31,110 nucleotides of DNA from a virus. The notes under the pieces are model-generated. The model saw nothing but the letters and a program-made list of their open reading frames with translations. It was not told where the DNA came from and made no database searches. Both the position numbers and the translations under genes were made by a program. The DNA lies in the IMG/VR virus record IMGVR_UViG_3300042883_000257, positions 1 through 31,110 of that record; one strand, 5' to 3'. Shown here one piece after another: positions 15,890 through 22,240 of this stretch; position 1 is the stretch's first letter; the number at the start of each line of letters is the position of its first letter.

Positions 15890-16145
15890 AAATTAATTCT
15901 TTTATTTTTAAATTGTGTATTGTTTTCAAATATTCTTTATGTTGTTTTTTATCTCCATATTCTAAATGACATGATCTACATAATGCTTGTAAGTTTTCAA
16001 TGTGATCAGCTTTCTTAGTACCACCCATTCCACGACATTCAATATGATGTATGTCATTTGCTTCTTTATTGCAGAGTTCGCAAGGTATAAAATCTGATTC
16101 ATCGAATCTAAAGAATTGCAAATATAATTTAGTATGCTTCTTCAA
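15876..16145 (-). CDS. HNH endonuclease
   Basis: 89 residues with a compact HNH/zinc domain: CELC (22-25), the HH of NDIHHIECRG, NLQALC and CRSCHLEYGD. These give a Cys4 zinc site around the catalytic His-Asn-His. HNH proteins close to terminase genes often take part in DNA packaging or cos cleavage; a homing endonuclease is the alternative. The start codon is TTG, overlapping the stop of the ParB-like gene (TTGA), and no ATG lies upstream of the domain, which supports the unusual start. Confidence 0.8.
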   Translation of the reverse strand: MKKHTKLYLQFFRFDESDFIPCELCNKEANDIHHIECRGMGGTKKADHIENLQALCRSCHLEYGDKKQHKEYLKTIHNLKIKELIYGNH

Positions 16146-16645
16146 TTTACTTTCATTATTGCAGAATATTCGTCACAAATGTTTTGAAGCTTTTCGTTCA
16201 TTTCTATAAATGCGTTGTTAGTCGCTTCGATTGAAATCTTGATATAATTTTCATCTTGTAATTCATCAACTGATTCTGATTCAAATATCGGTAAGTCTAA
16301 ACCCCAGCCATTAAGTTCATCTTCATCGTATTGATTAGCGATTATATCCCAGTCCCATTCGCCAAAGCCTATGTTGTCTTTGATAATGAATTCGGCTTGT
16401 TGTGCTTCGTTTAAATTAGAAGCCTTGATAATATACACTTCTTTAAGTCCAGCTTCGTTACACGCTTTTAAACGCATATTACCGCCAAGTGTAATCATAT
16501 CATTATTAACAATGATTGGTCGGAGTTGTAACATTTCTGGAAACTCATTAATAGACTTGACAAGCTTTCTAAACTTATCGTCTTTAATTAATCGTGGATT
16601 GTTTGGATTAGATTTAACTTCACCAATCTTTACTTTCTCAATCAT
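16142..16645 (-). CDS. ParB-like nuclease-domain protein
   Basis: 167 residues. The first 90 form a ParB/Srx-type N-terminal domain: IGEVKSNPNNPRLIKDDKF, then LRPIIVNNDMITLGGNMRLKA with the GGNMR box, then a helical part. The C-terminus is acidic. Phage ParB-like proteins next to terminase and methyltransferase genes are usually nucleases or DNA-binding adaptors rather than partition proteins, and there is no ParA here. It starts by ATGA overlap with the gene upstream and ends by TTGA overlap with HNH. Confidence 0.75.
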   Translation of the reverse strand: MIEKVKIGEVKSNPNNPRLIKDDKFRKLVKSINEFPEMLQLRPIIVNNDMITLGGNMRLKACNEAGLKEVYIIKASNLNEAQQAEFIIKDNIGFGEWDWDIIANQYDEDELNGWGLDLPIFESESVDELQDENYIKISIEATNNAFIEMNEKLQNICDEYSAIMKVN

Positions 16646-18722: not shown

Positions 18723-19712
18723 TTAAAAATCAAAGTCTTTACCAAATGTATTATTTAAAACTGAAACGTTTCCAGGTTCGATGTTTAATTTCTTTTTAGC
18801 TTCGTATTCAAGACCAAAATAAACAACTCCGTCAATGATTTCATAAAACCTGTTCTTTTTCCAATCCCAAAATAATTTACACATTCCTAATTTAGCAGAA
18901 CCTTTTGGCTTTGCTTTTGCAATAATTACATGAGTTTCATTTTCTTTATATGGTTGTCCATCTTTATCGTTAAACCCGACTGGTGGTCGCCACAATATTA
19001 TAAATACCATAGCTTTACGAAAGAACGATTGACCACCTGCCGATTGTCTTGGATGCGGTGGCGGGTAGTAAGTTACTCCGTTTTCGGTAATCGGTTGCTG
19101 GTCTTGTGGGTGCATACAAATAAAGATATGCTTGTTTTCTTTCTTTGCGTAGCGTCTAAGTTTCCCAACTGCATCTTCAATATATAAGTCTTGCCGACTT
19201 CCAAACTCACTCATGTTGTGCTTTACTTCATTGTAAGGATCGAATAAGATGTTGTCAATCTTTATACGATTTTCGGTTTCTAAAATCTTTGTCTGATTTA
19301 TTATATCATCAAAACTAAATGAATTTTCATCGTTATCAACTATAAAGAATTTATCATTTAAAAATCCAATAGCATTATATATATCTGCTTCTGTGCATCC
19401 ATTTACATCATTATCGAAAAATGGTTTTCTAACATATTTTGATATTAGTTCTTTTGCAAGGTCTTTATAATCACCAGTTTCAGGTGAAAATATTACGTGT
19501 CTTTCATTGTGCTTGATTGATAAGTTTAAAAGTAATTCGAGATTGAATTCAGTCTTGCCTGAATGTGGTGACGCAAGTATAAAAGTCATTGAACCTTTCT
19601 TCTTTGTGTATAATGCATCGAGACTTTCAAAGCCTACGTATTCACCTCTTTGTATTCCTGACTTGTGGAAAGCAAGTATTTCACTTTCCATTTGTAAAAG
19701 GTTTTTTATCAT
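18723..19712 (-). CDS. DnaB-like replicative helicase (RecA-fold ATPase)
   Basis: 329 residues with Walker A ASPHSGKT (47-54), then HVIFSPET (72-79), a Walker B-like IDNILFDPYN, a sensor MHPQDQQPI, and SAGGQSFFRKA, the arrangement of DnaB/Twinkle C-terminal domains. There is no N-terminal primase-interaction domain, so it is a helicase core only; a primase was not found and the host one may be used. It hydrolyses ATP to unwind DNA ahead of the fork. A candidate -7 box TATATTTA lies upstream. Confidence 0.8.
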   Translation of the reverse strand: MIKNLLQMESEILAFHKSGIQRGEYVGFESLDALYTKKKGSMTFILASPHSGKTEFNLELLLNLSIKHNERHVIFSPETGDYKDLAKELISKYVRKPFFDNDVNGCTEADIYNAIGFLNDKFFIVDNDENSFSFDDIINQTKILETENRIKIDNILFDPYNEVKHNMSEFGSRQDLYIEDAVGKLRRYAKKENKHIFICMHPQDQQPITENGVTYYPPPHPRQSAGGQSFFRKAMVFIILWRPPVGFNDKDGQPYKENETHVIIAKAKPKGSAKLGMCKLFWDWKKNRFYEIIDGVVYFGLEYEAKKKLNIEPGNVSVLNNTFGKDFDF

Positions 19713-19745: not shown

Positions 19746-20939
19746 TTATGATAATATTGTTTTATAAACATGATCTGCAACGGATTTCATCATTAGTGGT
19801 GGAACTGCTCTACCAAGTCTTTCCCATTTATTTGAAAATGTATTTCCACAATAGTAATCATAAGGAAAACTACATATTATTTTTAATTCACCAATTGAAA
19901 GTGTTCTTTTTTCAAAAGGATGCCATAATTCAGGTGCAGTTAATACTGTGCTACAAGGTTTGTTTTCATCTAATTTTATGCGTGTCATACCACTAATTCT
20001 TTCCCCTATTCTATCGCCACAAGCCTTCATTGATTCACCAGATAATTGTAATTCATAAACTCTTTCTTGTTCTTTACTAAGGTTTTTAAATTCATTATCT
20101 AATTCTATAAAATGTCTCCTTGATGCAAACAAACCATCTGAAGAAATAGTTGAACAAACTTCGTGTTTTTCAATTGTTCTTAACTCTGTTTCATTAAAAC
20201 ATTTTTTCTTTGCGGAAATTCTTTTAATCCAAGGCAATGCTTCACCAATAGTTATTTGTTCATTTTTTGTGATTGGAAAAGTAATTTGTTTTTTTATATC
20301 TTTTCTAACACCTATAAAAATAGTTCTTTCTCTGCTTTGTGGAACTAAAAAGTTTTTAGCATTTAAAACCTTATATCTGACATTATAACCACAATCTACT
20401 AATGTATGAAATATTGTATTTTTTTCTTCACCAAAAATATTTATTTGTTCACTCCCTAATAAATTAGAAGCTTCGCCCATAGTTATTCCTTTTACATTTT
20501 CGCAAATAAAAACTTTTGGTTGCACCTCTTTTAATATTCTTGCAAATTCAAAAAATAAATCATCTGTCCTTTGTGAAGAATCTGAATACTTTTTTTCGAC
20601 GCCCCAGCCTTTTTCTCTTAATCCAGCCATTGAAAAACTACTGCAAGGTGGTGAGCCATCTAAAATATCAAGTTCACCTTTTTTAAAGCCTATTTGATTA
20701 AGTACCATTTGCCCTGTTAAATCTCTTATATCTTGCTTAAAAATATATGTTTCAGGATAATTGATAGCATAAGCATCTTGTGCAGCAGGTATAAATTCAT
20801 TTATTGCTAAAACTTTACCGCCTGCCAATCTGTAACCAGTTGAAGAACCGCCACCACCAGCAAACAAGCTAACAACATTAAATAATTCTTTTGAAGATTG
20901 TTCTTTAACAAAGTCCAAATTGTAAATAAATGGATTCAT
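19746..20939 (-). CDS. DNA cytosine-C5 methyltransferase with Arg in motif X; possible carboxymethyltransferase
   Basis: 397 residues with C5-methyltransferase motifs in order: I LFAGGGGSSTG (25-35), IV GSPPCSSF with catalytic C99, VI CENVKG (E147), VIII QSRERTIF (201-208), target recognition region about 240-340, IX RTLSIGELKIICSFP (345-359), X LGRAVPPLMM (375-384). In nearly all C5 enzymes motif X reads GNxVPP; here Asn is Arg377 (codon AGA). This residue lies by the SAM sulfonium end, and changing the same Asn to Lys in M.MpeI (from memory) lets it use carboxy-SAM. With a CmoA-like gene 6 bases upstream, it probably transfers a carboxymethyl group to cytosine. Plain methylation is the alternative. 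Confidence 0.85.
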   Translation of the reverse strand: MNPFIYNLDFVKEQSSKELFNVVSLFAGGGGSSTGYRLAGGKVLAINEFIPAAQDAYAINYPETYIFKQDIRDLTGQMVLNQIGFKKGELDILDGSPPCSSFSMAGLREKGWGVEKKYSDSSQRTDDLFFEFARILKEVQPKVFICENVKGITMGEASNLLGSEQINIFGEEKNTIFHTLVDCGYNVRYKVLNAKNFLVPQSRERTIFIGVRKDIKKQITFPITKNEQITIGEALPWIKRISAKKKCFNETELRTIEKHEVCSTISSDGLFASRRHFIELDNEFKNLSKEQERVYELQLSGESMKACGDRIGERISGMTRIKLDENKPCSTVLTAPELWHPFEKRTLSIGELKIICSFPYDYYCGNTFSNKWERLGRAVPPLMMKSVADHVYKTILS

Positions 20940-20945
20940 AATTTT

Positions 20946-21593
20946 TTATTTTATTGCGATAATGCCGATGAAATTATAAGATTGCCAAAAAGTAGTGATA
21001 TTTTTAAAACCTGCTAATTTTAATAAATCTAAATTCTGCTGAAGTGTGTTCGGTTTCATTATATATCTTAAATCTCTTTCTTTTTTTATTATTTCTTCTT
21101 CTGTAAAATTGTTGCATTTATAATCATAATGACTAAAGGCAAGTATTTCTTGCATAATTCCAATTTCTTGATAAACCTTTTCACATAAAATAAAAGCACC
21201 TCCTGTATTTAAACCATCATAAACATTTTTACAAAAATCTTTTCTGCTCATTTTGTTAAGGAATTGCATTGTAAATATTGAATAAATTAAACAAGCATTT
21301 TGTATTTCAAAATAACTATTAAGATCAACAATTGAAAAGTGTATATTATCATCTTTTTCAGGCATTATCTTTGCATTATCATAACCTATTTTTAAATTAT
21401 TATAGGGAATTGATTTTAAAAGTTTACCTGTTGAACACCCTAAGTCATAAATATTGGTATCTTTTGTTATAAAGTATTCTGACATTGAATAAATAGTTTT
21501 CATCATAATGTCGTAACTGGGAATTGATTTTAAAATATGATTGTCAAAATCTTGTATTGTATTAAAATCAAATTTTATTGTTTCTTTTTTCAT
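20946..21593 (-). CDS. CmoA-like carboxy-SAM synthase
   Basis: 215 residues of the class I SAM fold. Along its length it follows CmoA: FNTIQDFDNHILKSIPSY (10-27) matches the CmoA segment ending SVPGY; DLGCSTG (50-56) is motif I; TMQFL and GLNTGGAFILCEK (127-139) match TLQFL and GLNPGGALVLSEK; HYDYKCNNFTEEEI matches HHDFKRANGYSELEI; WQSYNFIGIIAIK matches WFQCFNFGSLVALK. CmoA converts SAM and prephenate to carboxy-SAM for the tRNA enzyme CmoB. No CmoB is present, and CmoA/CmoB are mainly known from Gammaproteobacteria. The conserved Arg near 199 of E. coli CmoA falls in KKER here (R173), shifted by one in my gapless alignment. Confidence 0.8.
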   Translation of the reverse strand: MKKETIKFDFNTIQDFDNHILKSIPSYDIMMKTIYSMSEYFITKDTNIYDLGCSTGKLLKSIPYNNLKIGYDNAKIMPEKDDNIHFSIVDLNSYFEIQNACLIYSIFTMQFLNKMSRKDFCKNVYDGLNTGGAFILCEKVYQEIGIMQEILAFSHYDYKCNNFTEEEIIKKERDLRYIMKPNTLQQNLDLLKLAGFKNITTFWQSYNFIGIIAIK

Positions 21594-21616: not shown

Positions 21617-22240
21617 TTAATTAACTGGTATATTAAAATTTAAACTTCCTGTGTTTATTTTATTTTCATCTCGAAACCAAACGCCACGCATCTTCTGCTT
21701 CCAATTCAAAACCTTCTTGCCGTTGCTATCAATCCAGCTTGATTCATCATAATACTTCCAAGCGTTACGTGCAGCTTCTGCTTTAAATCCATTGTCTAAA
21801 AAGTATTTAATCACTTCATCAACTTCGGGCATATATACATTTACTTTACTTTTCTTTACTTTAGGACTGTTACACGAGCGTTCTGAATGCGTTACATTTT
21901 CCGTAACTGCTTGTTTATCACGCCACTCTGAAATTCGTTTTGCGTTTTTTTCTTTTTTTATCTGATACTTTTCACTAAAGTTTAGCAATTGTTTGTTGAA
22001 AGTTTCACCATTGTTTGAAGATATTAAGTCTATTTCTTCAAGAAATGACCAGCACTTTTCAAGTCGTTTGCCGACTTTACATTGATGTTTTAATACCGAA
22101 GTTTTGATAGGCTTTTCTTGTCGTGCCATTTTTTCGATCAAAGTATAAAACAATCCAAGACCTTCATATCCAAAATTTATGAATAGTTCTGAAATCTTTT
22201 CATCTTCAAAACTTGCCGTATCGTGTAAAAAATATTTCAT
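21617..22240 (-). CDS. replication initiator / replisome organiser, DUF4373-type
   Basis: 207 residues. The N-terminal 90 match the Lin1244/Lin1753-like DUF4373 winged-helix domain: a start like KYFLHDTASFEDEKI, then FGYEGLGLFYTLIEKMARQE and a hydrophobic helix before SNNGETFNKQLLNFS. The middle is a Lys/Ser linker (KKEKNAKRISEWRDK...). The C-terminal part (MPEVDEVIKYFLDNGF, AWKYYDESSW, GVWFRDE) is the typical organiser C-domain. It should bind the origin and load the helicase. Translation starts by ATGA overlap with the 44-residue gene. A broken copy of its middle part lies at 1842-2001. Confidence 0.8.
   Translation of the reverse strand: MKYFLHDTASFEDEKISELFINFGYEGLGLFYTLIEKMARQEKPIKTSVLKHQCKVGKRLEKCWSFLEEIDLISSNNGETFNKQLLNFSEKYQIKKEKNAKRISEWRDKQAVTENVTHSERSCNSPKVKKSKVNVYMPEVDEVIKYFLDNGFKAEAARNAWKYYDESSWIDSNGKKVLNWKQKMRGVWFRDENKINTGSLNFNIPVN

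Follow-up and report, generated by a model that had tools for sequence, protein, structure and literature searches.

The window, the whole 31,110-nucleotide stretch of viral DNA analyzed here, very probably (at about 0.9) comes from a tailed phage with a two-gene DNA carboxymethylation cassette: its CmoA-like protein, P0002, would make carboxy-SAM (Cx-SAM), and its cytosine C5-methyltransferase-like protein, P0001, would use Cx-SAM to make 5-carboxymethylcytosine (5cxmC) by means of a motif X arginine, R377 (Table 1). We infer the chemistry of both proteins from their homology to the characterized SpCmoA and SpCmoX of Synechococcus phage S-B43. The pair is a further instance of an already published system and, since the cofactor-switch idea is part of that publication (PMC12783734, December 2025), represents no new discovery; rather, a recently described DNA modification is now seen in an unrelated small phage. 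The parts that look unpublished are a prephenate-supplying variant of the unit in relatives, the swapping of cassettes at one genomic site, and a moved arginine in CmoA.

Table 1. Features of the window and of related loci (L numbers denote loci in relatives)
Feature	Location	Strand	Basis
Whole cmoA-cmoX cassette	19746..21593	-	Empty or alternative sites in relatives
cmoX-like gene P0001, putative DNA cytosine C5-carboxymethyltransferase, 397 aa	19746..20939	-	PF00145 and 8YF3 matches
R377 codon (AGA), motif X; counterpart of SpCmoX Arg350 and M.HhaI Asn304	19809..19811	-	Alignment; PMC12783734
cmoA-like gene P0002, putative carboxy-SAM synthase, 215 aa	20946..21593	-	PDB CmoA matches, TIGR00740, fold
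R176 codon of P0002; this Arg lies one turn of the helix beyond the column of E. coli R199	21066..21068	-	Alignment
Chorismate mutase, 88 residues, between cmoA and cmoX	L012:10631-10894		PF01817, E = 1e-19
DAHP synthase-chorismate mutase fusion, same place as the L012 mutase	L016:3875-4819		PF00793 + PF01817
DAHP synthase-chorismate mutase fusion, same place as the L012 mutase	L028:632-1579		PF00793 + PF01817
DAHP synthase-chorismate mutase fusion, in a row with a ligase and cmoX	L113:10-966		
Chorismate mutase next to cmoX or cmoA	L145:534-803		
Chorismate mutase next to cmoX or cmoA	L169:5646-5939		
Chorismate mutase next to cmoX or cmoA	L170:4944-5198		
Chorismate mutase next to cmoX or cmoA	L136:3047-3292		

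In S-B43, CmoA makes Cx-SAM and SpCmoX transfers its carboxymethyl group to the cytosine in GC; wild-type SpCmoX accepts Cx-SAM only, its Arg350 replaces M.HhaI Asn304 and contacts the Cx-SAM carboxylate, and the R350N variant is inactive (PMC12783734). A ligase, CmoY, then adds glycine, and the final S-B43 base is glycyl-5cxmC (PMC12783734). The first-pass annotation had noted that an Asn-to-Lys change in M.MpeI gives activity with carboxy-SAM, which the same paper confirms for the engineered N374K variant (PMC12783734). Like P0001, this variant has a basic residue at the equivalent motif X position, but it is a bacterial CpG enzyme with an engineered Lys, whereas P0001 has a natural Arg and would be a dedicated enzyme.

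Residue 377 of P0001 is Arg, within the motif ERLGRAVPP (NKWERLGRAVPPLMMK), so the sequence bears out the earlier reading of Arg instead of Asn at motif X. P0001 matches PF00145 (DNA_methylase; E = 7e-50 in a profile search), and its top PDB match by sequence is 8YF3, the S-B43 CmoX with Cx-SAM (E = 1.6e-68), which is likewise the top fold match of its AF2 model (E = 5e-31). Direct alignment with SpCmoX gave 44% identity over 351 aligned residues and paired R377 with R350; all of the contact pairs that we checked are identical (SpCmoX/P0001: F25/F26, E47/E48, F48/F49, D69/D70, SPPC95-98/96-99, and R350/R377). Arg350 faces the cofactor in the 8YF3 crystal structure, which argues against a homologous Arg377 that points away from it. 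In a first set of 12 aligned CmoX sequences, R377 is invariant (12 of 12), as are SPPC (96-99), ENV (147-149), and R203/R205. The P0001 target-recognition region (about residues 239 to 317) was modeled with low AF2 confidence and is unlike that of SpCmoX.

The P0002 gene ends 6 bases upstream of the cmoX-like gene. P0002 matched the PDB CmoA entries 4GEK, 4IWN, and 1IM8 in a sequence search, and its AF2 model superimposes on the six best E. coli and Haemophilus influenzae CmoA chains with TM scores of 0.82 to 0.86. It is 38.6% identical to SpCmoA, a CmoA of proven activity. Against the NCBIfam CmoA model TIGR00740 it scored 119 bits (E = 2e-34), below the cut-off of 193; in control genomes, the model was uninformative about host CmoA below this cut-off. 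Judged by sequence, phage CmoA is best described as a divergent CmoA branch.

We propose that P0002 would convert SAM and prephenate to Cx-SAM, after which P0001 would flip out a cytosine, attack its C6 with Cys99, and move the carboxymethyl group to C5, yielding 5cxmC. R377 would form a salt bridge with the cofactor carboxylate and thereby select Cx-SAM over SAM. The 5cxmC mark would probably protect phage DNA from restriction. The S-B43 system likewise places CmoA beside an Arg-type C5-carboxymethyltransferase, and it shares with the window the SPPC motif, the cofactor contacts, the Arg, and a Glu...Arg change in CmoA (see below); however, S-B43 is a 214-kb cyanophage that has CmoY, whereas the window represents a small, ∼31-kb phage with no CmoY ligase, and the target-recognition regions of the two enzymes differ.

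To test the link between the motif X Arg and CmoA we used relatives, which we collected as viral contigs with CmoX, CmoA, and terminase queries and as bacterial genomes with CmoX. Our co-occurrence count was restricted to distinct genes, omitted every locus found through CmoA, and scored CmoA within 4 kb. The association was clear: CmoA was near 97 of 106 Arg genes and 1 of 27 non-Arg genes (Arg/CmoA, 97; Arg/none, 9; non-Arg/CmoA, 1; non-Arg/none, 26), with a Fisher p of 6e-19 that overstates independence because the counted genes are related. An Arg at this position is thus not common among C5-methyltransferases that lack a CmoA neighbor, and, together with the 8YF3 match and the alignment to R350, these counts support the first-pass proposal that Arg and an adjoining carboxy-SAM synthase signal a cofactor switch. 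Among the nine Arg genes scored without CmoA, three lie near contig edges, one has CmoA across the contig ends (L113), and one has it further off (L304). The non-Arg genes mostly carry Met (GMSVPP; Bacteroidota and others) or Asn, and the sole one with CmoA (L323) appears to be frameshift-broken. In the terminase-matched relatives, C5-methyltransferases without CmoA carry Asn in 7 of 7 cases. Four records (L106, L108, L109 [34.7 kb], and L117) encode an Arg-type CmoX near that of the window and no CmoA; these phages may use host CmoA, or the records may be incomplete.

One genuine class of exceptions shows that a partner of CmoA need not have the Arg: in two staphylococcal phages (L021:5642-6655 and L022:6494-7510) CmoA lies by a C5-methyltransferase with Gly in the R377 column and no SPPC. 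Thus, either Arg is not the sole solution or the partner differs. It is possible that this enzyme is a second kind of carboxymethyltransferase, one that the published filter would miss.

On one side of the cmoA-cmoX pair lies a replication-initiation-like gene (21617-22240), and on the other a DnaB-like gene (18723-19712). In the relatives L194 to L199 the site is empty: the flanking genes abut directly or are separated by 13 nt. In L214/G160 it is occupied by a TET-associated glycosyltransferase (PF20691, E = 2e-35) together with a ParB-like fragment (L214:3313-4552), and in L212 by a short C5-methyltransferase (L212:2253-2918). Because relatives have this site empty or otherwise filled, the site is one where modification genes can be exchanged, a TET-associated glycosyltransferase among them, and the cmoA-cmoX pair moves there as a cassette. 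We excluded the window's own ParB gene (16142-16645) from the cassette because it adjoins the terminase and occurs in 34 of 80 terminase-matched relatives irrespective of cmoX. The window aligns with the 31,222-base relative G160 over about 1.2 to 30.5 kb. G160 itself looks complete, given an overlap of about 232 bases between its two ends. By this comparison, the window holds nearly all of a ∼31-kb tailed-phage genome.

With no CmoY-type ligase in the window (no match to PF00733, nor to three CmoY queries), plain 5cxmC would be the simplest end product of the pair. It is possible, though on balance doubtful, that 5cxmC is merely an intermediate to which a host enzyme, or an unrecognized or out-of-record phage gene, ligates an amine, as CmoY does in S-B43. 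The glycylated final base of S-B43 (PMC12783734) favors such a step, as do ligase-like genes near the cmo pair in 68 surveyed loci, including L113 of the window's wider CmoX clade; however, PF00733 matched neither the window nor 18 of 20 related records, many of which are fragments, and the window spans nearly all of the apparently complete G160.

Two other explanations question the carboxymethylation of DNA itself. P0001 could be an ordinary phage 5mC methyltransferase, its Arg lineage noise and the CmoA gene a chance neighbor. Membership in PF00145 and also in TIGR00675 (dcm), with all of the usual motifs present, would suit such an enzyme, yet its cofactor contacts are those of 8YF3, relatives with Met or Asn instead of Arg lack CmoA, and R377 is not a chance substitution, because the Arg is fixed clade-wide and tracks CmoA; we therefore regard this explanation as very unlikely. 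We give slightly less credence still to a role of the CmoA-like gene in tRNA (cmo5U) rather than DNA modification. P0002 is indeed homologous to the CmoA of the tRNA pathway, and its PHROG annotation reads "tRNA methyltransferase," but its gene sits within 6 bases of a CmoX that bears the Cx-SAM Arg, cmoA and cmoX stay together in phages whose hosts differ widely, and no CmoB-like gene was found among the window proteins examined. DNA carboxymethylation by P0002 and P0001 accordingly remains our preferred reading.

E. coli CmoA (4GEK and 4IWN) resembles P0002 in its fold and is about 30% identical to it in sequence overall, but the two differ at the residue that holds the cofactor: E. coli Arg199 forms a salt bridge with the Cx-SAM carboxylate (PMC3663124), whereas P0002 has Glu172 in this column and Arg four residues, or one helical turn, further on (E172...R176, window 21066-21080). 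S-B43 CmoA aligns with the same Glu...Arg pattern and has been proven active (PMC12783734). Of 102 nonredundant CmoA sequences, including that of E. coli, 16 have the Arg in column 199, 46 have it at +4, 30 have it at +8, and 8 have one at both +4 and +8; the last 2 have Lys in column 199. These positions lie one turn of one helix apart, so the Cx-SAM-binding Arg appears to have shifted along one face of the helix between CmoA lineages. Sequences of the +8 group are far removed from true CmoA, and their function is less certain. An Arg that shifts along a single helix makes it simple to test, at the structural level, how Cx-SAM synthases bind the carboxylate.

The CmoA reaction consumes prephenate, and prephenate is the product of chorismate mutase. 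Where phages obtain it is an open question in the CmoX paper, whose main text does not mention chorismate (PMC12783734), and relatives of the window offer a testable, gene-level proposal. We searched 154 records for PF01817, of which one was the window and the other 153 were virus or phage records that came nearly all from CmoA and CmoX searches, and found matches in 8 (Table 1); the window had none, nor did any of 50 terminase-matched records. By count alone (8 of 153 versus 0 of 50) this enrichment is weak, and the weight of the finding lies in position and recurrence, because all eight genes are inside or next to a cmo unit. Chorismate mutase, mapped as a label on the CmoX tree, requires 7 changes, at least 4 of which are forced by well-supported branches. 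The mutase is found alongside CmoAs of three helix (Arg-position) types.

Verrucomicrobiota MAG contigs contain chorismate mutase-CmoX-CmoA trios, in several copies per MAG (L274 to L277, L279 to L285, L287, and L300 to L303); all nine of the trio mutases that we checked with PF01817 were above cut-off. The elements that carry these trios look like prophages, since the trios are repeatedly surrounded by genes such as DNA polymerase A (L303) and a gpA terminase, the latter checked in the viral relative L170. An alignment of eight of these mutases has seven invariant residues. Aligned to 1ECM, these include the spacing of the E. coli chorismate mutase active-site residues R11, R28, K39, D48, and R51.

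Based on this recurrence, we consider it likely that some phages bring their own prephenate supply to feed DNA modification, as a chorismate mutase or, with the first shikimate pathway enzyme too, a DAHP synthase fusion, within cmoA-cmoX units of several lineages and within the trios of the Verrucomicrobiota prophage-like elements; the pair in the window would then be a reduced, host-dependent form. Isolate phages hardly ever carry close relatives of these mutases (50,697 records searched). Our literature search on phage chorismate mutases, which covered the main text of PMC12783734, found nothing relevant.

Enterobacter phage Entb_45 (L183:2832-4935) encodes a U32 peptidase, a chorismate mutase, and a thymidylate synthase in a row. 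As in L012, L016, and L028, the mutase lies beside a possible prephenate-using modification enzyme; unlike those loci, the stretch that was read contains neither cmoA nor cmoX. The cluster is presumably linked to 5-hydroxycytosine and is perhaps a second prephenate-fed base modification.
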